A stretch of 64,000 nt of DNA from Allomuricauda sp. ARW1Y1 (lineage in GTDB: Bacteria > Bacteroidota > Bacteroidia > Flavobacteriales > Flavobacteriaceae). This document shows, one piece after another, positions 17,698 to 27,869 of this stretch. Below the pieces are notes generated by a model. It made no database searches. It was given only the letters and a program-made list of their open reading frames with translations, and had not been told where the DNA came from. Position 1 is the stretch's first letter. Each line of letters opens with the position of its first letter. A program made the position numbers and the translations under genes. The stretch is from the NCBI RefSeq assembly GCF_013407935.1, contig NZ_JACBZU010000002.1:1-64000 (forward strand), written 5' to 3'.

Positions 17698-18453
17698 TTA
17701 CTTGGCAATTTGTCTCTTGAGCTCTTCCATGGACTGCTGTAACTGCTTCAACAAGCCGGTTTCTGTAGTGGCATCCACGTTGAAAGTCAATTTGCTGCTT
17801 ACCTCCCAAATTTCTTGGATTTGGAAAGGTTTGATTTCGTAGGGCGGATACGTCTCGTTGAGGGAAACCAAGGTAATGTTATTGGAGTTTGGTTTTCGTT
17901 CAATCTTTTTCACCATTACCGAATCCTGAAGCACGACAACGTACATTTTATTGGGACTCACATGGTCAATGTGCTCGATGGCGCGTGCCAACACCCAATC
18001 GTTAGGCCTTAGATTGGGGAGCATACTATCGCCCTCCACCTGAAAGCCACGATAGGTCGCATTGCGAAATTCAGGAATGGGCATATCAAAAGCTGGTAAT
18101 TGTCGGTACCAGCTGGTATCGGAAATATTTTGTGGATACCCTGCTGCAGCCTTGGCATTCACCATCACCATGTTGTCGTTATCGGAATTATCCACGGTGA
18201 CCACCTTGGGAATGACACTGGTTTTTGAAGTGTCCAAATGCTTTTGGTCGCTTTCACCAAATAACCACAATGGGTTGATTTTGAACTGCTTCAAAAGCTC
18301 AGTAACCACCTTGCCCGATAACTTGGTCCTCCCCCGCTCGATATCGGCAGTTGTATTTTTCACGCCCAACAATTGGGCGAACTCCGTTTGGGTGTATCCG
18401 AGTTCCCTTCGGATATCGGTAAATCGTTTTAGGGTTATTTCATTTTCCATCAT
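17698..18453 (-). CDS. XRE-S24 self-cleaving repressor (LexA/CI-like)
   Basis: A 251-aa regulator with an N-terminal Cro/C1 helix-turn-helix (about 8-60, YTQTEFAQLLGVKNTTADIERG) and a C-terminal S24 peptidase domain. The autocleavage site is AAAG (Ala104-Gly105), the nucleophile Ser143 is in EGDSML and the general base Lys182 is in VMVKK. This is the full LexA/CI set, so RecA-stimulated self-cleavage after DNA damage is plausible. A short coiled tail (about 225-250) follows. It faces a radical-SAM gene across a 180-bp spacer with four palindromes, and its promoter overlaps the first of them, implying autoregulation. The start could also be the second ATG (MENEIT). It could instead be a prophage repressor, but no phage genes are nearby. 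Confidence 0.9.
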   Translation of the reverse strand: MMENEITLKRFTDIRRELGYTQTEFAQLLGVKNTTADIERGRTKLSGKVVTELLKQFKINPLWLFGESDQKHLDTSKTSVIPKVVTVDNSDNDNMVMVNAKAAAGYPQNISDTSWYRQLPAFDMPIPEFRNATYRGFQVEGDSMLPNLRPNDWVLARAIEHIDHVSPNKMYVVVLQDSVMVKKIERKPNSNNITLVSLNETYPPYEIKPFQIQEIWEVSSKLTFNVDATTETGLLKQLQQSMEELKRQIAK

Positions 18454-18460
18454 CTAGTCA

Positions 18461-18493
18461 ATAATGTCCTGTCGAGCGCAGTCGAGACATTAT
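18461..18493. repeat. Hairpin containing the GTCGAGCGCAGTCGAGAC dispersed repeat
   Basis: The arms ATAATGTC (18461-18468) and GACATTAT (18486-18493) are perfect inverted repeats enclosing most of GTCGAGCGCAGTCGAGAC (18471-18488). The element lies in the transcribed leader of the S24 repressor, starting 8 nt upstream of its start codon, so it could affect translation of the repressor. A related copy is at 21290. Confidence 0.75.
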
Positions 18494-18537
18494 GCAGTAT
18501 TTTAATCTCGAAAGCAATGATAAAGACAATCTATTCT

Positions 18538-18566
18538 CAAATATAGGGTATTTGGATTATTTCCAA
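18538..18566 (-). promoter_or_regulatory. Promoter of the S24 repressor gene
   Basis: On the minus strand TTG (18566-18564) precedes TATATTTG (18545-18538) by 18 nt, a near-ideal Bacteroidota promoter. The -33 element lies inside palindrome 1 of the operator array (18551-18567), so a bound repressor would block it. Expected start near 18531, leaving a leader of about 77 nt. Confidence 0.65.
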
Positions 18567-18631
18567 AACTTTTTATGGATTATTTCCAATATTTGGATTT
18601 TTTCCATATTTTTGATTGGAATATTTCCAAG
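18551..18631. promoter_or_regulatory. Four-copy palindromic operator array
   Basis: Four 17-bp sites of the form TTTGGA-N5-TCCAAA: TTTGGATTATTTCCAAA (18551-18567, perfect), TATGGATTATTTCCAAT (18574-18590), TTTGGATTTTTTCCATA (18592-18608) and ATTGGAATATTTCCAAG (18615-18631). Starts are 23, 18 and 23 nt apart, so sites 1/3 and 2/4 are each 41 nt apart. The array lies between the divergent repressor and radical-SAM genes and ends 2 nt before the latter's ATG. It is the probable binding array of the S24 repressor. Confidence 0.85.
18607..18614 (+). promoter_or_regulatory. Candidate -7 element of the radical-SAM gene
   Basis: TATTTTTG matches TAnnTTTG exactly, between palindromes 3 and 4. Transcription would begin about 18620, inside palindrome 4, 13-14 nt before the ATG at 18634. 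No -33 TTG is seen at the usual distance, so the unrepressed promoter may be weak or need an activator. Confidence 0.5.
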
Positions 18632-18633
18632 TT

Positions 18634-19896
18634 ATGAATTTCGACCGATTACGCGAAAAACTGAACATTTTGGCAGACGCTGCTAAATACGATGTGTCCT
18701 GTGCCAGTAGTGGAAGTAATAGGACCAACGCAAACAAGGGGTTGGGTAATGCTTCCAAAATGGGAATTTGCCACAGCTATACCGCGGATGGGCGCTGCGT
18801 GTCGCTTTTAAAGATTCTGCTCACCAACCATTGCATTTTTGATTGTGCCTATTGTGTAACACGGAAAAGCAATGATGTCCCAAGGGCAGCCTTCAAGGTA
18901 CAGGAGGTAGTTGACCTAACCATTAATTTTTACAGAAGAAACTATATCGAAGGGCTTTTTTTGAGTTCCGGGATATTTAAAAGTCCCGACCACACCATGG
19001 AGCGCTTGATTACGGTGGCCAAAAAGCTTCGCGAAGAGGAAAACTTCAACGGTTACATTCATTTAAAGTCCATTCCAGGGGCAAGTGACGAATTGATGTA
19101 CGAGGCGGGACTCTATGCAGATAGACTTTCCGTAAATATTGAAGTGCCAACGGTTTCAGGACTTAAACTGTTGGCTCCCGACAAAAAGCACGAGGATTTT
19201 ACCAAACCCATGGAAAAGGTGAAAAATGAAATCGTTCGCTACACTTCGGAACGTAAAATCATTAAAAGTACACCAAAGTATGCCCCAGCTGGTCAGAGCA
19301 CCCAAATGATTGTAGGTGCATCAGGTGAATCGGATAAGGACATCATGTATTCGGCCACCTATTATTACAAAACATACAACATGAAACGGGTCTATTATTC
19401 GGGTTATGTGCCGGTGACCCACGATTCACGTTTGCCAGCCATTGGGACCCAAGTGCCCATGTTGCGGGAGAACCGACTATATCAAACGGATTGGCTATTG
19501 CGCTTTTATGGCTTTTCGGTAAAGGAGTTGCTGAACAAGCAGCATCCTAATCTGGATATGGACGTGGACCCAAAGCTTTCATGGGCCTTGCGCAACCTGC
19601 ACCACTTTCCTGTGGATGTAAATTCAGCAGATAAACGCTTGCTGGCAAGGATACCCGGTATCGGACTGCAGTCCGTGGACAAAATTGTAAAGGCTAGAAA
19701 GTTTCGAAAATTGAACTGGGACCATCTCAAAAAAATGGGAGTGGCCCTCAACCGTGCCCAATATTTTATGGTGTGCGACTCCCGCTACTGGGAACGCCGT
19801 GATTTGGATGCGGAGAAGATAAAAGGTATGATTCTGCAACATTCCACGGGGAAATTTCGGAATCAGTACAGTACACAATTGTCCCTATTTAATTAG
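18634..19896 (+). CDS. Putative DNA modification/repair radical SAM protein with HhH end
   Basis: A 420-aa protein. The radical-SAM 4Fe-4S motif is C67-IFD-C71-AY-C74, in the N-terminal half; further cysteines (23, 46, 55) are in the conserved VSCASSGSNR and GICHSYT region. A helix-hairpin-helix DNA-binding motif (ARIPGIGLQSVDKIVKAR, about 337-355) lies near the C-terminus. This matches the family I recall as rSAM_link_UDG (TIGR03916 type), which occurs with the partner found next here and sometimes with a uracil-DNA-glycosylase-like domain. The reaction is unknown. ATG at 18634 is preferred over a TTG at 18616, which lies inside palindrome 4. Probably repressed by the S24 protein. Confidence 0.88.
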   Translation: MNFDRLREKLNILADAAKYDVSCASSGSNRTNANKGLGNASKMGICHSYTADGRCVSLLKILLTNHCIFDCAYCVTRKSNDVPRAAFKVQEVVDLTINFYRRNYIEGLFLSSGIFKSPDHTMERLITVAKKLREEENFNGYIHLKSIPGASDELMYEAGLYADRLSVNIEVPTVSGLKLLAPDKKHEDFTKPMEKVKNEIVRYTSERKIIKSTPKYAPAGQSTQMIVGASGESDKDIMYSATYYYKTYNMKRVYYSGYVPVTHDSRLPAIGTQVPMLRENRLYQTDWLLRFYGFSVKELLNKQHPNLDMDVDPKLSWALRNLHHFPVDVNSADKRLLARIPGIGLQSVDKIVKARKFRKLNWDHLKKMGVALNRAQYFMVCDSRYWERRDLDAEKIKGMILQHSTGKFRNQYSTQLSLFN

Positions 19897-19959
19897 AAAT
19901 GGACAATTGATAAATGAGTCAGTTAAAATGACTTCAAAAAACCAAAAAAAGTAGGTGTT

Positions 19960-20736
19960 ATGAACGCTTCAACAACCTTAGTGTACGATGGCAGTTTCAA
20001 CGGATTCCTGACCGCCGTCTTTGTTGCCTTTGATGAAAAAATCAATGTGGCCGACATTCAAAAGAACCATCAGACCCAAAGCGGGCTGTTTTCGGAAACC
20101 GAAACGGTGTTTACCCACGTGGAAAAGGCGAAACGGGTCTGGAACGGTATCCGAAACAAGAGTCACAATGCCATTTCCAATGTGTATTTTGCCTTTTTGA
20201 GCGAAACCGAAGGGATAGAGCTGCTGTTGTACAACTATATCCAAAAATTGATGCGCGACAAAAACGGAAAATATATGGATTACTCAGATTCCACGGTGTT
20301 GTACATTGCCCAATTGGCCAAAAAAGTAGGGCGCGAAAAGCATCGCATGGAGGCCTTTGTACGGTTTCAGTTGACCAAAGATGGCATCTACTTCGCCAAT
20401 ATTGAACCCGATTTTGACGTATTGCCCTTAATCTCCAAGCACTTTCGTGACCGCTACGCGGACCAAAAGTGGTTGATTTATGACGTAAAGCGCAGCTACG
20501 GAATTTATTATGATTTGGATCATATGGAAATGGTATCCCTAAACCTAAAGGACATCCATCACAACAGAACGGTGAAAAGTGCTGCCTTTGCGGATGAAGA
20601 ATATGAATACCAAACCCTTTGGAACGATTATTTTAAGAGCACCAATATTGCATCGCGCATCAATCCTAAATTGCATGTGCAACATGTGCCCAAAAGGTAT
20701 TGGAAGTATTTAAGTGAGAAGAAGGAGGCAGTTTGA
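19960..20736 (+). CDS. Partner of the radical SAM protein (TIGR03915/DUF4130-type putative DNA repair protein)
   Basis: A 258-aa protein starting MNASTTLVYDGSFNGFLTAVFVAF, the conserved start of the family that I recall as SAM_7_link_chp, annotated putative DNA repair/metabolism protein. The middle (about 90-170) contains VGREKHRMEAFVRFQ and FANIEPDFDVLPLI, and the end KLHVQHVPKRYWKYLSE, both typical. No catalytic motif is evident. It follows the radical-SAM gene after 63 nt on the same strand, the arrangement seen across many genomes, so the two are expected to work together. Its stop abuts that of the next gene (TGATCA, no spacer). Confidence 0.85.
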   Translation: MNASTTLVYDGSFNGFLTAVFVAFDEKINVADIQKNHQTQSGLFSETETVFTHVEKAKRVWNGIRNKSHNAISNVYFAFLSETEGIELLLYNYIQKLMRDKNGKYMDYSDSTVLYIAQLAKKVGREKHRMEAFVRFQLTKDGIYFANIEPDFDVLPLISKHFRDRYADQKWLIYDVKRSYGIYYDLDHMEMVSLNLKDIHHNRTVKSAAFADEEYEYQTLWNDYFKSTNIASRINPKLHVQHVPKRYWKYLSEKKEAV

Positions 20737-21264
20737 TCAGCCCTTCCCCTTCTCCCCCACAAAATGGTCGCTTTTGGCTTTGAACATCACATTAAAACTG
20801 GTCAAGCTACCGTAAATTCGGGTAATGTATTGCTGTAGGTCCACCTTTTCTTGGTCGTCCAAGTTTTTGCTACTATTGATTTTCTGCTCCATCACCCGGA
20901 TGCGATCGCGCACCATTACAATCTTATGAAAAAAGGTATCTATGGGCATTTCTTTGCTGGCCGTTCCATCCCCAGGGTCCAAAATAAGCTTGCCGCCTTT
21001 CCACTTATCCGCCATCGGCACCTTTTCGTGGGTATCGCTCCATTTTTCCAAAATCTTGACCAAGGAGCGTTCCACATCAAAAAAACTGACGCTGTCCACT
21101 TCGTCTTCCACACCGTCAATCACTTCAAAATCCGCATCCAAATCAATGGTTTCCAATCCATTTTCCATAAAAGTGACCCAATAGTGCTTGGATGATACAT
21201 TGGTGACTACACCTTTGCCGTACTCGGGATGCTCTATTCTGGAGCCAATAGCTAGTAATTTCAT
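20737..21264 (-). CDS. Conserved hypothetical protein with Tudor/CarD-like N-terminus
   Basis: A 175-aa protein. Residues about 5-50 (GSRIEHPEYGKGVVTNVSSKHYWVTF) resemble the small beta-barrel found at the C-terminus of UvrD/PcrA and in CarD/TRCF RNA-polymerase-interacting domains. The rest is helical, with an acidic stretch (about 50-60) and a likely coiled region (about 105-150). Function unknown. It lies between the radical-SAM partner (0 nt, convergent) and uvrA (divergent, 189 nt), so a role tied to DNA repair or transcription is possible but unproven. ATG start. Confidence 0.6.
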   Translation of the reverse strand: MKLLAIGSRIEHPEYGKGVVTNVSSKHYWVTFMENGLETIDLDADFEVIDGVEDEVDSVSFFDVERSLVKILEKWSDTHEKVPMADKWKGGKLILDPGDGTASKEMPIDTFFHKIVMVRDRIRVMEQKINSSKNLDDQEKVDLQQYITRIYGSLTSFNVMFKAKSDHFVGEKGKG

Positions 21265-21289
21265 ATTTGTTTCTTTTGATTCTGTCAGG

Positions 21290-21345
21290 TCGAGCGCAGT
21301 CGAGACCCAACATTGGATAAATTAGCACCTCTTGACTGCGCTCAA
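21290..21345. repeat. Inverted pair of the TCGAGCGCAGTCGAGA dispersed repeat
   Basis: TCGAGCGCAGTCGAGA (21290-21305) and TCTTGACTGCGCTCAA (21330-21345) are inverted copies matching at 14 of 16 positions, separated by 24 nt. They could form a long stem in the divergent spacer between uvrA and the conserved hypothetical gene. The same core is at 18472. Confidence 0.75.
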
Positions 21346-21429
21346 GGTGATAATGTACACGGTAAAAATAAACCAACTAGGCACAAAAACGAAACCAAAA
21401 GGCTACTTCATTTTTACATCCCAAATCGC

Positions 21430-21437
21430 TACATTTG
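21430..21437 (+). promoter_or_regulatory. Candidate -7 element of uvrA
   Basis: TACATTTG fits TAnnTTTG and ends 16 nt before the uvrA ATG. At the -33 position only TTC is present, so the call rests on the -7 half. None of the TTTGGA-N5-TCCAAA palindromes is seen here. Confidence 0.4.
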
Positions 21438-21453
21438 AAGTTTGCTATGATTT

Positions 21454-24315
21454 ATGATCAATTACGAAGAACATATTGAGGTTAAGGGTGCTCGGGTCCA
21501 TAACCTTAAAAATATAGATGTCACCATTCCCCGGGAAAAATTAGTAGTGATTACAGGGCTTTCGGGGAGCGGAAAATCATCATTGGCCTTTGATACCATT
21601 TATGCGGAGGGACAGCGCCGATACATCGAAACCTTTTCGGCCTACGCCCGTCAGTTCTTGGGTGGACTGGAGCGTCCCGATGTGGACAAAATTGACGGGC
21701 TATCGCCTGTTATTGCCATAGAACAAAAGACCACCTCCAAATCCCCGCGCTCCACCGTCGGCACCATCACCGAAGTCTACGATTTTTTAAGATTGCTTTT
21801 TGCACGTGCCGGGGACGCCTACAGTTACAACACGGGCGAAAAAATGGTAAGCTACAGCGATGAACAAATCAAGGATTTGATCATTGAGACCTACAAGGAC
21901 AAAAAAATCAATGTGCTCGCCCCGGTCATCAAATCCAGAAAAGGACATTACCGAGAACTTTTTGAACAGATTGCAAAGCAAGGTTTCGTTAAGGTAAGGG
22001 TCGATGGCGAAATAGTGGACATCACCAAAGGCATGAAGGTCGACCGGTACAAAACGCATGATATTGAGATTGTCATCGACCGATTGAAAGTCGGCGACAG
22101 TGAGGATTTTCACAAGCGATTGAGCGAAACTATCAACACGGCCATGTACAGCGGCGATAATGTGCTGATGGTCTTGGAAGAGGGCGAAAAAGTGCCACGG
22201 TATTTTAGTCGGGATTTAATGTGCCCCACTTCGGGCATCTCCTACCCCACTCCTGAGCCCAACACCTTTTCGTTCAATTCACCCAAGGGAATGTGCCCCG
22301 AATGTAGCGGATTGGGTCATGTGTATCAGGTAAATGAGAACAAAATCATCCCCAACAAAAAAATATCCATCAAAGCTGGTGGACTTGCCCCGCTGGGGGA
22401 ATACAAAAAGTCTTGGGCCTTTAAGCAGTTGGAAACCATAGCCCAACGTTACAATTTTGATCTATCGGATGCCATTGAAAAGATTCCGCAGGAAGCCATG
22501 GACGTTATACTGAACGGCGGAAAGGAAAGTTTTGAGGTCGATTCCAAAAGTTTGGGCGTCAAACGGCAGTACAAAATCGATTACGAAGGGATTTCCAATT
22601 TCATCAAAACCCAATATGAGGAAGCGAACTCCACTTCCATAAAACGATGGGCCAAAGATTATATGGACAAAGTGAAATGCCCTTCCTGTGAAGGTTCCCG
22701 TTTGCGCAAGGAGTCCCTCTATTTTAAAGTGGATGGAAAGAACATTGCGGAGCTGGCCCAAATGGATATCAACGAGTTGGCGGATTTCTTTCAGCATTTG
22801 GAGGATACCTTGGAAGGCAACCAGAAAAAAATCGCAGAGGAAATCATCAAGGAAATCAAAGCCCGTGTTGGTTTTTTGTTGGATGTTGGATTGGATTACC
22901 TATCGCTCAACCGTAGTTCTAAATCATTATCGGGAGGTGAGGCCCAACGCATACGATTGGCTACACAAATAGGCTCCCAATTGGTGGGAGTACTCTACAT
23001 TCTGGACGAACCCAGTATTGGTCTGCACCAACGGGACAATGAACGTTTGATCCATTCCTTGGAGTCCTTGCGTGATATTGGCAATTCGGTTATCGTGGTA
23101 GAGCATGACCGTGATATGATCGAAAGTGCCGATCACGTCATCGATATTGGCCCCAAAGCGGGAAAGCATGGCGGTGAAATCATATCACAAGGAAAACCAA
23201 AGGAACTCATAGACCAACATACGCTCACCGCACAATACATCACCGGAGAATTGGAAATTCAGGTTCCAGAAAAGAGGCGCAAGGGAACGGGCAAAAAAAT
23301 TACCCTTTCCGGATGCACAGGGAACAATCTTAAGAATGTGACCGTAGATTTCCCTTTGGGAAAACTCATTGGGGTCACGGGTGTTTCGGGAAGTGGAAAA
23401 TCCACCTTGGTCAACGAAACTCTCTATCCCATTATGAACGCCCACTACTTTAATGGGGTCAAAAAACCGATGCCCTACAAAAAAATCATGGGGCTGGAGC
23501 ATATCGATAAGGTCATCGATATCAACCAATCCCCTATCGGACGTACCCCGAGGTCCAACCCCGCTACGTATACCGGGGTTTTTGGTGAAATACGATCGCT
23601 TTTCGCCAAAACTACGGAGGCCACCATCCGTGGTTATAAACCGGGCCGATTCAGTTTTAATGTGGCCGGTGGTAGGTGCGAAACCTGCCAAGGTGGAGGG
23701 CTTAAAGTGATTGAAATGAACTTTTTGCCCGATGTATATGTGGAATGTGAAACCTGCAACGGTAAAAGATTCAACCGGGAAACACTAGAAATCCGTTACA
23801 AAGGAAAGTCCATTGCCGACGTGCTGGAAATGACCATTAATGAGGCTGTTGATTTTTTTGAGAACATTCCAAAAATTCATCGTAAGCTCAAAACAATAAA
23901 AGATGTAGGTTTGGGTTATATATCATTGGGACAACAGTCCACTACTCTATCCGGAGGAGAAGCACAACGGGTCAAATTGGCCACGGAGCTTTCCAAACGG
24001 GATACCGGGAACACGTTTTATATCCTCGACGAACCTACAACCGGCTTGCACTTTGAAGACATTAGGGTACTTATGGAAGTACTCGACCGACTGGTGGACA
24101 AAGGAAACACCATTTTGGTCATTGAACACAACATGGATGTCATTAAAATGATGGACCATATTATCGATATTGGATACGAAGGCGGTAAAGGAGGTGGCGA
24201 AGTGGTTGCGACCGGTACCCCTGAAGAGGTGGCCAAAGACAAGAAAAGTTACACGGCTCGATTTTTGAAGAAAGAATTGGAGAGCACAAAACAGAACATA
24301 AAAAGCGCAGTTTAA
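21454..24315 (+). CDS. uvrA: UvrABC nucleotide excision repair, subunit A
   Basis: A 953-aa DNA-damage-recognition ATPase. Both ATP-binding halves are complete: Walker [10 protein letters not shown] (about residue 34) and GVSGSGKST (about 645), with ABC signatures [12 protein letters not shown] and [12 protein letters not shown]. Zinc modules [24 protein letters not shown] and CETCNGKR are present. Length is normal. UvrA dimers load UvrB at lesions. It starts an operon with a LOG-family gene 14 nt downstream. The spacer upstream contains the inverted repeat pair and a -7 element. Confidence 0.98.
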
Positions 24316-24329
24316 ACAATAGAAGTACT

Positions 24330-25022
24330 ATGCAAATGCGAAAAGAACAACATTCCAAAGGATGGAATGAGATAAAGACGAACGATTCGTGGGCCATATT
24401 TAAGATTATGGGCGAGTTCGTCAATGGATTTGAAAAAATGAGCGTTATTGGGCCATGCGTCTCCATTTTTGGGTCGGCAAGGGTGCGCGAAGGCCATCCT
24501 TACTATGATTTGGCCGTGAAAATTGCCAAACGGATTGCCGAAGCAGGCTACGGCGTTATTACCGGTGGAGGGCCTGGAATTATGGAAGCTGGCAACAAAG
24601 GGGCCAATTTGGCGGGCGGCACCTCGGTCGGGTTGAACATTGACCTGCCTTTTGAGCAGCATGACAATCCATTCATTGATAGTGATAAAAGTTTGGATTT
24701 TGATTACTTTTTCGTCAGAAAGGTAATGTTTGTTAAATATTCGCAAGGTTTTGTGGTAATGCCGGGAGGTTTTGGCACCTTGGATGAGTTTTTTGAGGCT
24801 CTTACCCTTATCCAAACACATAAAATCCATACGTTTCCTATTATTTTGGTCGGTACTGAATTCTGGAAAGGATTGATGGACTGGATCAAAAACACCTTGG
24901 TCGAAGAGGGCAACATCAGCCCCAAGGATTTGGACTTGATCAAATTGGTGGATACCGAGGATGAAGTTATCGAAATCATTGATGCCTTCTACAAAGGCCG
25001 AACGTTAAGTCCCAACTTTTAA
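24330..25022 (+). CDS. LOG-family protein (TIGR00730-type Rossmann fold)
   Basis: A 230-aa protein with the LOG/lysine-decarboxylase-like signature GGGPGIMEAGNKGA (about 77-90) and PGGFGTLDEFFEALTLIQ (about 148-166). Characterised members are nucleotide 5'-monophosphate phosphoribohydrolases, such as cytokinin-activating LOG and nucleotide-cleaving PpnN; the physiological substrate here is unknown. An alternative ATG two codons in (24336) is equally plausible. It follows uvrA by 14 nt and precedes the peptidase-like gene by 6 nt, so all three are likely one transcript. Confidence 0.88.
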   Translation: MQMRKEQHSKGWNEIKTNDSWAIFKIMGEFVNGFEKMSVIGPCVSIFGSARVREGHPYYDLAVKIAKRIAEAGYGVITGGGPGIMEAGNKGANLAGGTSVGLNIDLPFEQHDNPFIDSDKSLDFDYFFVRKVMFVKYSQGFVVMPGGFGTLDEFFEALTLIQTHKIHTFPIILVGTEFWKGLMDWIKNTLVEEGNISPKDLDLIKLVDTEDEVIEIIDAFYKGRTLSPNF

Positions 25023-25028
25023 TCCCGT

Positions 25029-27869
25029 TTGGTATTGGTCCCATCTAGAATACTATTTTGCGTTTCACTCGTTTTATCACTCCTGTGCCCCCAACTTTGG
25101 GGACAGCACACCAACGAGATAGTGGCCACCTTGGACGGCCCAACCAACCAAATACGTATTCGGCAACACTTTACCTACCACAACCAATCGGACAAAGGAC
25201 TGTCCACCCTTTATTTCAACGATTGGAACCATGCCTACTCCAATAAAAACACGGCCCTTGCCAAACGTTTTGGGGAGGAGTTCAACAGAAGTTTGCACTT
25301 GGCAAAGGATAGGGAAAGAGGCTATACCACCATCAAGACCATAGTGGACAACAACTATGTTGGATTGGACTGGAAAAGGGAAGGCAATTCGGATTATATC
25401 ACCGTCAACCTGAACGAAGTCCTAAAACCCAATGAATCCATACAACTCTTTTTCACCTACACCATCAAACTGCCGAGCGCCAAATTTACCGGGTACGGAC
25501 ATCGGGATGATGGGGGTTACCATTTAAAGGATTGGTATTTTTCCCCTGCTGTTTTTGACGGGGAATGGCATCTGTACAACAACATCAACCTGAACGATAT
25601 CTATACTGATGTGACCAATACCCGAATCAACTTCACCTTTCCGGAAAACCTGTTTTTGGTGTCAAATTATAGAAAGTCGAGCGTTTCAGGGTTTCCAAAT
25701 GGGCAATACACGCAATTGATCGGGGACAATCGAAAGAATTGTGAAATCATTCTAAACAGGGATGACCGTTTCACCAAGCACGTCACCGACTTCGTCACCG
25801 TTTCCACGGATATCGAATCGAACAAATATGAGGAAATTGCACAGGGCATCTCCATTTTAAAAATTGCGCAGTTCCTTCAAGAAAATTTGGGTTCCTATCC
25901 GCACGGAAACCTGTTGGTTTCTGAATTTGACTACAACCGCTCGCCGCTCTACGGCATCAATCAGTTGCCTTCTTTCATCAGACCTTACGAAGAACAGTTC
26001 CAGTTTGAGATGAAGTTTCTCAAAACGGCTATCCGAAGCTACTTGAAAGAATCGCTCTATTTGAATCCGAGAAAGGAACGCTGGGTAAACGATGCCATTG
26101 GGTATTACTTGATGATCAAATACGTGGAAGAGTTCTATCCCGACCAAAAACTGATAGGGAAGCTTTCCAGAATTTGGGGCGTGAGGAGCTTTCATTTGGC
26201 TAAAATGGATTTTAACGAGCAATATGCACTTTTCAGCATGCTTTCGGCCCGAAAGAACATCGACCAGGCATTGACCACTTCGAATGACTCCTTGATCAAG
26301 TTCAACGAACGTATTGCCAACGGCTACAAGGCTGGATTGGGAATGTCCTACCTATCGGCCTATTTGGGCGAAAAGAAGATAGACAGTACGGTGTTGGACT
26401 TTTATAAAAACTACAAACAACAGCAAAGAGTAAGTGCTGCGGACTTTAGAAAAACCATTGAAAAATATGCGGATAAGGAGGTGGATTGGTTTTTTGAGGA
26501 ATATGTAGGCTCGGATAAAAAGATTGATTTCAAGATCAAGAGTGTTGAAAAGACCGACGATTCCATCACCTTTATGCTCAAGAACAAGCGGGGAACCAAT
26601 GTGCCGATATCGCTTTTTGGACTGGAGAACGACTCTGTAGTCTCCCAATACTGGTTTAGCAATATTGACTCTACCAAGAGCTTTACCATTCCGCGAGGAA
26701 GTGAAGACCGTTTGGTGTTGAACTACGACCAAAAAATCCCGGAATTCAACCAACGGGATAATTGGAAAACTTTGAATGGATGGTTTTCCAGCAATAAAAA
26801 ACTAAAGTTTCAATTTTTTAAGGATACCGAAGACCCTTATTACAATCAGGTGTTTTATGTGCCCATCATGAACTTTAACTTGTATGATGGTGTAACCCCA
26901 GGGTTGCGATTGTACAACAAAACCTTCTTGGAGCGCCCATTTGAATATGATATAGCCCCCACCTATTCCTTTTTGGAGCGCACCATGGTGGGTAAAGTGG
27001 GATTCCGATATCGGAAATACCATAACAAAACAGGTCTTTTTGTGACCAACTACTCCTTCTCGGCCTCCACTTCACATTTTGAGCAAAATTCAAGGTTTTC
27101 TACGGTAACGCCGGCCATTAGTTTTGGATGGCGCCCCAACGATTTATTGTCCAACCGAAGGCAATATCTCCTTCTAAGGTACCGGAATGTGTTTAGGAGC
27201 ATTGATGAGAGTTTACAGGGAGAACTGGAGACCGACCCTGATTATGGGGTGTTGAATGCACGCTTTACCGATGTGGACAACAGCATAATCAATTACTCCT
27301 CTTGGTCCATAGATGCACAACATTCCAGTGAGTTCAGCAAGCTGGCGTTCGAATGGGAATACCGAAAACTCTTCCAGAGCAATAGGCAGTTGAACCTTCG
27401 CTTCTACGCAGGAAAGTTTTTGCGCAATACCACGAATTCCAACTTTTTTAGCTTTGCACTGGACAGACCTACGGATTATATGTTCGACCTTGCCTATTTG
27501 GGTAGGTCGGAAGATTCCGGGATCTACAGTCAACAGGTAATCATTGCTGAAGGAGGATTCAAATCAAAGTTAGAGAATCCATTTGCGAACGATTGGATTG
27601 CCACCACCAATGCCAGCACCAACATTTGGCGTTGGATCGAGGCTTATGGGGATCTTGGCTTTATCAAAAACAAAGGAGAGAACACCCGTTTTGTTTACGA
27701 CTCCGGTATCCGTCTCAACTTGGTCACGGATTACTTTGAACTTTACTTTCCCGTGTATTCCAACAGAGGTTGGGAAATTGCGCAAAACGACTATGGACAA
27801 CGTATCCGATTTATTGTTACCTTAAGTCCTAGAACACTTACCGGGCTATTTACCCGAAAGTGGTTTTAA
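25029..27869 (+). CDS. M1-peptidase-like domain fused to an outer-membrane beta-barrel
   Basis: A 946-aa exported protein with signal peptide (ILFCVSLVLSLLCPQLWGQ). Residues about 25-480 follow the fold pattern of M1 aminopeptidases, but the zinc site is gone: the place of HExxH reads KTAIR (332-336), and 18 residues later the distal ligand Glu is Asp355 (WVNDAIGYYL). GxMEN is also lost (YGINQL). From about residue 600 the sequence alternates in long aromatic-rich strands and ends TRKWF, as in outer-membrane beta-barrels. A surface or periplasmic binding role seems more likely than proteolysis. The start codon is TTG (25029 or 25035); no ATG is available. It begins 6 nt after the LOG stop. 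Confidence 0.72.
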   Translation: MVLVPSRILFCVSLVLSLLCPQLWGQHTNEIVATLDGPTNQIRIRQHFTYHNQSDKGLSTLYFNDWNHAYSNKNTALAKRFGEEFNRSLHLAKDRERGYTTIKTIVDNNYVGLDWKREGNSDYITVNLNEVLKPNESIQLFFTYTIKLPSAKFTGYGHRDDGGYHLKDWYFSPAVFDGEWHLYNNINLNDIYTDVTNTRINFTFPENLFLVSNYRKSSVSGFPNGQYTQLIGDNRKNCEIILNRDDRFTKHVTDFVTVSTDIESNKYEEIAQGISILKIAQFLQENLGSYPHGNLLVSEFDYNRSPLYGINQLPSFIRPYEEQFQFEMKFLKTAIRSYLKESLYLNPRKERWVNDAIGYYLMIKYVEEFYPDQKLIGKLSRIWGVRSFHLAKMDFNEQYALFSMLSARKNIDQALTTSNDSLIKFNERIANGYKAGLGMSYLSAYLGEKKIDSTVLDFYKNYKQQQRVSAADFRKTIEKYADKEVDWFFEEYVGSDKKIDFKIKSVEKTDDSITFMLKNKRGTNVPISLFGLENDSVVSQYWFSNIDSTKSFTIPRGSEDRLVLNYDQKIPEFNQRDNWKTLNGWFSSNKKLKFQFFKDTEDPYYNQVFYVPIMNFNLYDGVTPGLRLYNKTFLERPFEYDIAPTYSFLERTMVGKVGFRYRKYHNKTGLFVTNYSFSASTSHFEQNSRFSTVTPAISFGWRPNDLLSNRRQYLLLRYRNVFRSIDESLQGELETDPDYGVLNARFTDVDNSIINYSSWSIDAQHSSEFSKLAFEWEYRKLFQSNRQLNLRFYAGKFLRNTTNSNFFSFALDRPTDYMFDLAYLGRSEDSGIYSQQVIIAEGGFKSKLENPFANDWIATTNASTNIWRWIEAYGDLGFIKNKGENTRFVYDSGIRLNLVTDYFELYFPVYSNRGWEIAQNDYGQRIRFIVTLSPRTLTGLFTRKWF

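Follow-up and report, generated by a model that had tools for sequence, protein, structure and literature searches.

Bacteroidetes carry non-canonical LexA proteins that join an S24 peptidase domain to a CI-like helix-turn-helix (HTH) domain, and a GGA-N5-TCC motif for such proteins is found mainly in Flavobacteriaceae (PMC8565304). Here we describe a locus with a repressor of this kind in Allomuricauda sp. ARW1Y1, at positions 17698 to 20736 of a stretch of 64,000 nucleotides that was analysed as a whole (the window). The repressor gene stands back to back with an operon that encodes a radical S-adenosylmethionine (rSAM) protein of family TIGR03916 and its partner, a DUF4130 protein of family TIGR03915. 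Very probably the locus is the seat of SOS control in a flavobacterium of the Flagellimonas/Allomuricauda type, where a non-canonical LexA represses itself, the rSAM-DUF4130 operon, dinB and a PA0069-type gene.

A member of the class for which experiments have been published is that of Salegentibacter agarivorans. The available part of PMC8565304 (Nucleic Acids Research, 2021) reports electrophoretic mobility shift assays on GGA-N5-TCC sites, including mutated ones, and induction by mitomycin C, recA not being induced there. Cleavage was inferred from the intact residues, and a phage origin was suggested for the non-canonical LexA family. The predicted regulon comprised dinB, a SplB-type rSAM gene (COG1533) and a COG1573-COG4277 operon, and this operon was interpreted as uracil-glycosylase repair (PMC8565304). 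DUF4130 has been called a predicted mutagenesis-related enzyme and is associated with SplB-like rSAM proteins and uracil glycosylases (PMC3765255). Our literature search found no paper on the TIGR03916/DUF4130 pair beyond these two, of which parts were available.

We take the COG1573-COG4277 operon of PMC8565304 to be the TIGR03916-DUF4130 pair. The initial annotation, made from the DNA alone, had presented the combination of regulator, operators and enzyme pair as not known to be described; this did not stand, for the regulator class, its operator, its induction and the predicted control of the COG1573-COG4277 operon all appear in the available text, and the combination is already known in outline. 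What the present analysis adds is the back-to-back layout with four operators, a regulon of three promoters when strict sites are counted, operators that follow the repressor across genomes, and a partner with DUF4130 only.

The repressor and its operators

The elements of the locus are as follows.

17698..18453, minus strand: S24/CI-like HTH repressor, 251 aa, with PF00717 and PF01381 matches
18538..18566, minus strand: putative Bacteroidota-type promoter of the repressor, TTG (18566-18564), N18, TATATTTG (18545-18538)
18552..18566: predicted operator O1, palindrome, TTGGATTATTTCCAA
18575..18589: predicted operator O2, palindrome, ATGGATTATTTCCAA
18593..18607: predicted operator O3, palindrome, TTGGATTTTTTCCAT
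18607..18614, plus strand: -7-like element of the rSAM operon, TATTTTTG, between O3 and O4
18616..18630: predicted operator O4, palindrome, TTGGAATATTTCCAA, stopping 3 bases short of the rSAM ATG
18634..19896, plus strand: rSAM protein TIGR03916, 420 aa, with a CIFDCAYC cluster motif and a C-terminal helix-hairpin-helix (HHH); PF04055 and HHH_3
19960..20736, plus strand: partner TIGR03915/DUF4130, 258 aa, no uracil-glycosylase domain

The repressor is transcribed away from the rSAM-DUF4130 operon, with 180 bp between the two, and all three genes lie where the initial annotation had put them. Its domains were recognised as Peptidase_S24 (PF00717, 51 bits) and HTH_3 (PF01381, 34 bits), and both were found in all 28 repressors of an alignment made of the window protein and 27 of the 58 loci where a repressor was found, picked for spread. 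The residues A102-A103-A104-G105, S143 and K182, which had been described as an intact set, are unchanged in the same 28 sequences; the predicted scissile bond is Ala104-Gly105 and the predicted catalytic residues are Ser143 and Lys182. This repressor is the sole PF00717 match in the 3.53-Mb genome (99.92% complete), which therefore encodes no LexA or UmuD of the PF00717 family.

The four operators are 15-bp palindromes of the form WTGGA-N5-TCCAW, with the core TGGA-N5-TCCA. That the palindromes proposed initially are real was borne out by counting strict sites in the 180-bp intergenic region: four were observed against a shuffle mean of 0.0002, and the maximum in 5000 dinucleotide shuffles was one. 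In an ungapped comparison with 21 relatives (L031-L054 minus L042, L044 and L053; L042 lies at a contig edge and shows only the beginning of the repressor gene), the TGGA/TCCA positions were 99.9% conserved and the other positions 87%. No CTAA-N5-TTAG motif occurs in the window.

Both promoters were placed with what we take to be the Bacteroidota consensus, TTG / TAnnTTTG. The -33 TTG of the repressor promoter falls inside O1, and its -7 element was seen in all eight loci checked out of 80 related ones. At the -7 position of the rSAM operon, TAnnTTTG was present in seven of eight loci checked, and no TTG was found 17-23 bases upstream of TATTTTTG. As predicted from the sequence, this layout of operators and promoters suits autoregulation together with repression of the rSAM operon.

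Targets elsewhere in the genome and the genus

The exact pattern TGGA-W5-TCCA occurs at eight places in 3.5 Mb (three for the reversed-pattern control): four at this locus, one before dinB, one before a PA0069-type gene and two within genes. The dinB-type target encodes a 404-aa DinB-type polymerase, and the PA0069 family is presumably the SplB-type family COG1533. The tandem pattern TGGA-N5-TCC-N(5-15)-GGA-N5-TCC likewise marked the promoters of this locus, dinB and the PA0069-type gene, against none for the reversed control; four further tandem places and the two further exact sites were rejected as promoters, all of them lying in genes or long open frames. Counted by strict sites, the regulon has three promoters. 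Single sites with one mismatch numbered 103 on the forward and 108 on the reverse strand (controls 29 and 33), and weaker targets may exist among them.

The same arrangement recurs across the genus. Of 30 dinB-type loci, which came from 26 of the 30 genomes (paralogues of 65-70% identity included and one further match left out), 28 have two tandem upstream sites 19 bp apart, and so do 28 of the 29 PA0069-type loci, which came from 29 of the 30 genomes. Promoter sites included, these loci contain 0.14-0.18 sites per 200 bp overall.

These targets bear on how narrow the role of the repressor is. The initial annotation saw a dedicated switch, and a repressor serving the rSAM pair alone, perhaps sensing a specific lesion or metabolite, would agree with the four operators here versus two at each other target and with the close linkage in 16 of the 21 sampled genera that have both genes. 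Yet the same operators stand at the dinB and PA0069-type genes, and an orthologue of the repressor is present in 26 of the 92 sampled genera that lack TIGR03916, so that the word "dedicated" had to be given up and we regard such a narrow role as highly improbable. These operators and these genomes suggest that the repressor is a general SOS regulator.

Linkage of the repressor, its operators and the rSAM gene

Among the 80 related loci, the repressor was directly divergent from the rSAM gene in 53, beyond an intervening gene in four (Aquimarina) and about 4.4 kb off in one (L095); in the other 22 it was not found within the locus. We also searched 120 genomes, one per genus of the family. TIGR03916 was present in 28, 47 had a repressor orthologue and 21 had both, a co-occurrence with a Fisher p of 1.5e-5 that ignores shared ancestry. 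The orthologue threshold of at least 280 bits was chosen after a gap between 280.5 and 140.9 bits was seen. Of the 21 genera with both genes, 16 had them divergent at 111-432 bp and two divergent at 4.4 and 5.9 kb, as measured between model matches and not gene ends; in three they were unlinked.

The operators before the rSAM gene follow the presence of the repressor. Where the repressor is adjacent, at least two sites lie in the 120 bp that precede the rSAM gene at 51 of 53 loci (shuffle mean 0.04); of the two exceptions, L077 has a single site and L096 lacks any in this interval, with two farther upstream that are still intergenic. A further 23 loci were grouped as lacking the repressor, namely the 22 without one and L095 with its distant copy, and 15 of them keep two sites before the rSAM gene. 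A genome search covered 22 of these 23 (L093 was left out). All 15 searched genomes with rSAM operators carry a repressor orthologue elsewhere. Of the seven without rSAM operators, two have an orthologue (Ulvibacter L090, and L095) and five do not, four of these having a weak paralogue only and one nothing. Operator and orthologue presence are associated across the 22 genomes with a Fisher p of 8e-4. Sites also precede the repressor itself: at least two lie before the start of all 17 orthologues located away from the rSAM gene, against none of five weak paralogues. Both the linkage and the retention of the palindromes in relatives, which the initial annotation had named as checks of its proposal, were found, with exceptions.

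Some relatives show other arrangements. The four Aquimarina loci have two operators next to the repressor, in the gap that precedes the intervening gene, and this gene is apparently the first of the rSAM operon; in L098 (4598-5011), the locus in which the domain was checked, it encodes a DUF559 (restriction-endonuclease-like) protein, and L100, L105 and L106 show an equally large gap. In the Gillisia genome of L095 (L201 1516-3591), the back-to-back neighbour of the repressor is a dinB-type gene and not the rSAM gene; the dinB-type gene is 79% identical to that of the window genome, and three operators lie between it and the repressor. In Gillisia marina L091 (L217 1501-2248) the orthologue is split over two overlapping frames, through a frameshift or an assembly error, and the rSAM operators are kept.

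A phage-type repressor resident at this place would give a different picture, in which the neighbours are mere passengers, the palindromes work as a switch of the phage kind and DNA damage does not control the rSAM pair. The N-terminal domain is indeed of the CI/HTH_3 type and the best phage-family match of the repressor is phrog_4, a transcriptional repressor family (E 2.3e-25), and PMC8565304 also suggests a phage origin, but PHROGs matched neither gene of the rSAM pair nor any of three others scanned close by at 1e-5, and the further neighbours that were named have housekeeping functions (glmM, gamma-glutamyltransferase and uvrA among them). Throughout the genus, dinB-type and PA0069-type genes have these operators upstream, and the orthologue occurs in 47 of the 120 sampled genera. 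We give a resident phage-type switch very little credence. A defence-system reading was also dropped: PADLOC gave no match for the rSAM protein or its partner, and only weak HTH matches to the repressor.

Several points count against an SOS locus of the proposed kind. The cross-genus tests ignore shared ancestry, and 10 of the 15 genomes with operators and a distant orthologue are titled Christiangramia. Ulvibacter (L090, L215) has the repressor with its own operators, and no site lies within 500 bp of its rSAM gene; the pair can therefore escape from this control. At the threshold used, no dinB-type match was found in four of the 30 genomes of the genus. No operator was found in the 250 bp examined upstream of recA, nor at the neighbouring uvrA (21454-24315), with zero GGA-N5-TCC in 18629-26157, and both genes were dropped as targets.

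With these points weighed, an SOS control locus under a non-canonical LexA remains our strongly preferred reading, and we propose that it would work in the following way. The repressor would bind O1 to O4, between the divergent genes, repressing itself and the rSAM-DUF4130 operon, and would also shut dinB and the PA0069-type (SplB-like) rSAM gene elsewhere in the genome. We infer repression through operator binding because the operators are conserved and binding by a relative has been published (PMC8565304, available part). Damage would induce the system: RecA that has formed filaments on single-stranded DNA should stimulate the repressor to cut itself at Ala104-Gly105 through Ser143/Lys182, a step made plausible by the intact catalytic residues, and the three promoters would thereby all be freed. 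The rSAM protein, probably binding DNA through its HHH motif, and the DUF4130 protein would then act jointly on damaged DNA; their regulation and the HHH motif are what suggest an action on lesions.

The rSAM-DUF4130 pair and comparison with known systems

The family labels given initially were confirmed, the rSAM protein scoring 671 bits against TIGR03916 (cut-off 343.5) and the partner 276 bits against TIGR03915 (cut-off 112.25). The HHH motif that had been read in the rSAM protein was also recovered, as Pfam HHH_3 at 27.1, barely above the cut-off of 27. We take COG4277 to be this TIGR03916 rSAM/HHH protein. In an alignment of the window protein with 24 of the 80 loci, picked for spread, the cluster cysteines Cys67/71/74 (CxxxCxxC) are unchanged in 25 of 25 sequences. 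Cys23, Cys46, Cys55 and Cys381 are also unchanged in all 25, and could serve a second metal cluster or hydrogen transfer. The mechanical open reading frame (ORF) begins at TTG 18616, within the last palindrome; we prefer ATG 18634 as the start, because all 25 aligned sequences keep a Met there. Among named organisms, Flagellimonas marinaquae is the closest relative (identity 98% for the rSAM protein, 100% for the repressor and 95% for the partner).

Downstream, a convergent 175-aa ORF (20737-21264) lies between the operon and uvrA and had no match in Pfam, NCBIfam or PHROGs. An Rfam scan of the window matched nothing.

According to the available text of PMC8565304, the COG1573-COG4277 operon would belong to a uracil-DNA-glycosylase base-excision system. 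The COG label and interpretation given there, the family name of TIGR03916 (rSAM_link_UDG) and the association of DUF4130 with SplB-like rSAM proteins and uracil glycosylases (PMC3765255) agree with this. The partner itself speaks otherwise: in all 35 sequences scanned at E up to 1 (the window and 34 of the 80 loci, picked for spread), DUF4130 was found and no glycosylase domain, and the partner ORF is 227-268 aa long in 78 of 80 loci (one of 166 and one of 298, by mechanical start choice). This genome has no match to TIGR03914 (UdgX-type), ordinary Ung-type glycosylases not having been searched for. None of the 120 family genomes has a TIGR03914 match above the cut-off; of the 11 weak matches, three fall in the 28 genomes with TIGR03916, and one (G011) reaches E 1.3e-23. 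As judged from these sequences, the pair does without a partner-fused UdgX in this family. Because the partner is DUF4130-only and the genome has no TIGR03914 match, the published uracil-glycosylase reading is weakened for this family, and we consider it unlikely for the pair described here.

Comparisons of the two proteins with others were as follows. In a local profile comparison, TIGR03916 and the PA0069-type family aligned over only 15 columns, at CxxxCxxC, both profiles being shallow (effective number of sequences about 1.5). The rSAM protein gave five matches among PDB sequences at E up to 1 (RuvA, ComEA-related and weak HydG-type); spore photoproduct lyase was not among these five. Among sequences of solved structures, DUF4130 had no relative up to E=1. 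Its AlphaFold model had a predicted local distance difference test score of 80.3 and a predicted template modelling score of 0.75, and no conclusion was drawn from it. Tentatively, the SOS-controlled TIGR03916-DUF4130 pair might carry out a glycosylase-free, radical-based DNA repair, in which an HHH-docked, DUF4130-assisted rSAM protein directly reverses or remodels a base lesion by means of a 5'-deoxyadenosyl radical, in parallel to the SplB-like PA0069-type enzyme that has the same operators.

In the preferred reading of an SOS control locus, a marine genus uses a phage-like repressor as its LexA, the regulon is compact and can be checked, and two uncharacterised rSAM enzymes come under one SOS switch. 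The roles of TIGR03916 and DUF4130, an old question, become testable with a few knock-outs.

By every feature tested (domains, residues, operators and regulon), the sequence places the window repressor in the GGA-N5-TCC group of non-canonical LexA proteins. Shared with that class are the S24 and CI-like HTH domains, the intact Ala-Gly/Ser/Lys set, sites before its own gene, the lack of any other PF00717 protein, the Flavobacteriaceae relatives, and a regulon with dinB, a SplB-type rSAM gene and the COG1573-COG4277 operon. The locus differs from the account in PMC8565304 in that the repressor and the rSAM operon stand back to back over four shared operators, a layout not met in the available part of that paper, in a regulon of three promoters by strict sites with no operator in the 250 bp before recA, and in a partner without a glycosylase domain. 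Like the described TIGR03916/TIGR03915 (rSAM_link_UDG/DUF4130) pair, both proteins score well above the curated cut-offs; a difference is that no TIGR03914 (UdgX-type) domain is fused to the partner or found in the genome. With canonical LexA, HdiR and UmuDAb the repressor shares the predicted chemistry of RecA-stimulated autocleavage, but it differs from them in carrying an HTH_3 CI-like domain in place of the LexA winged helix and in using another operator (PMC8565304, available part).

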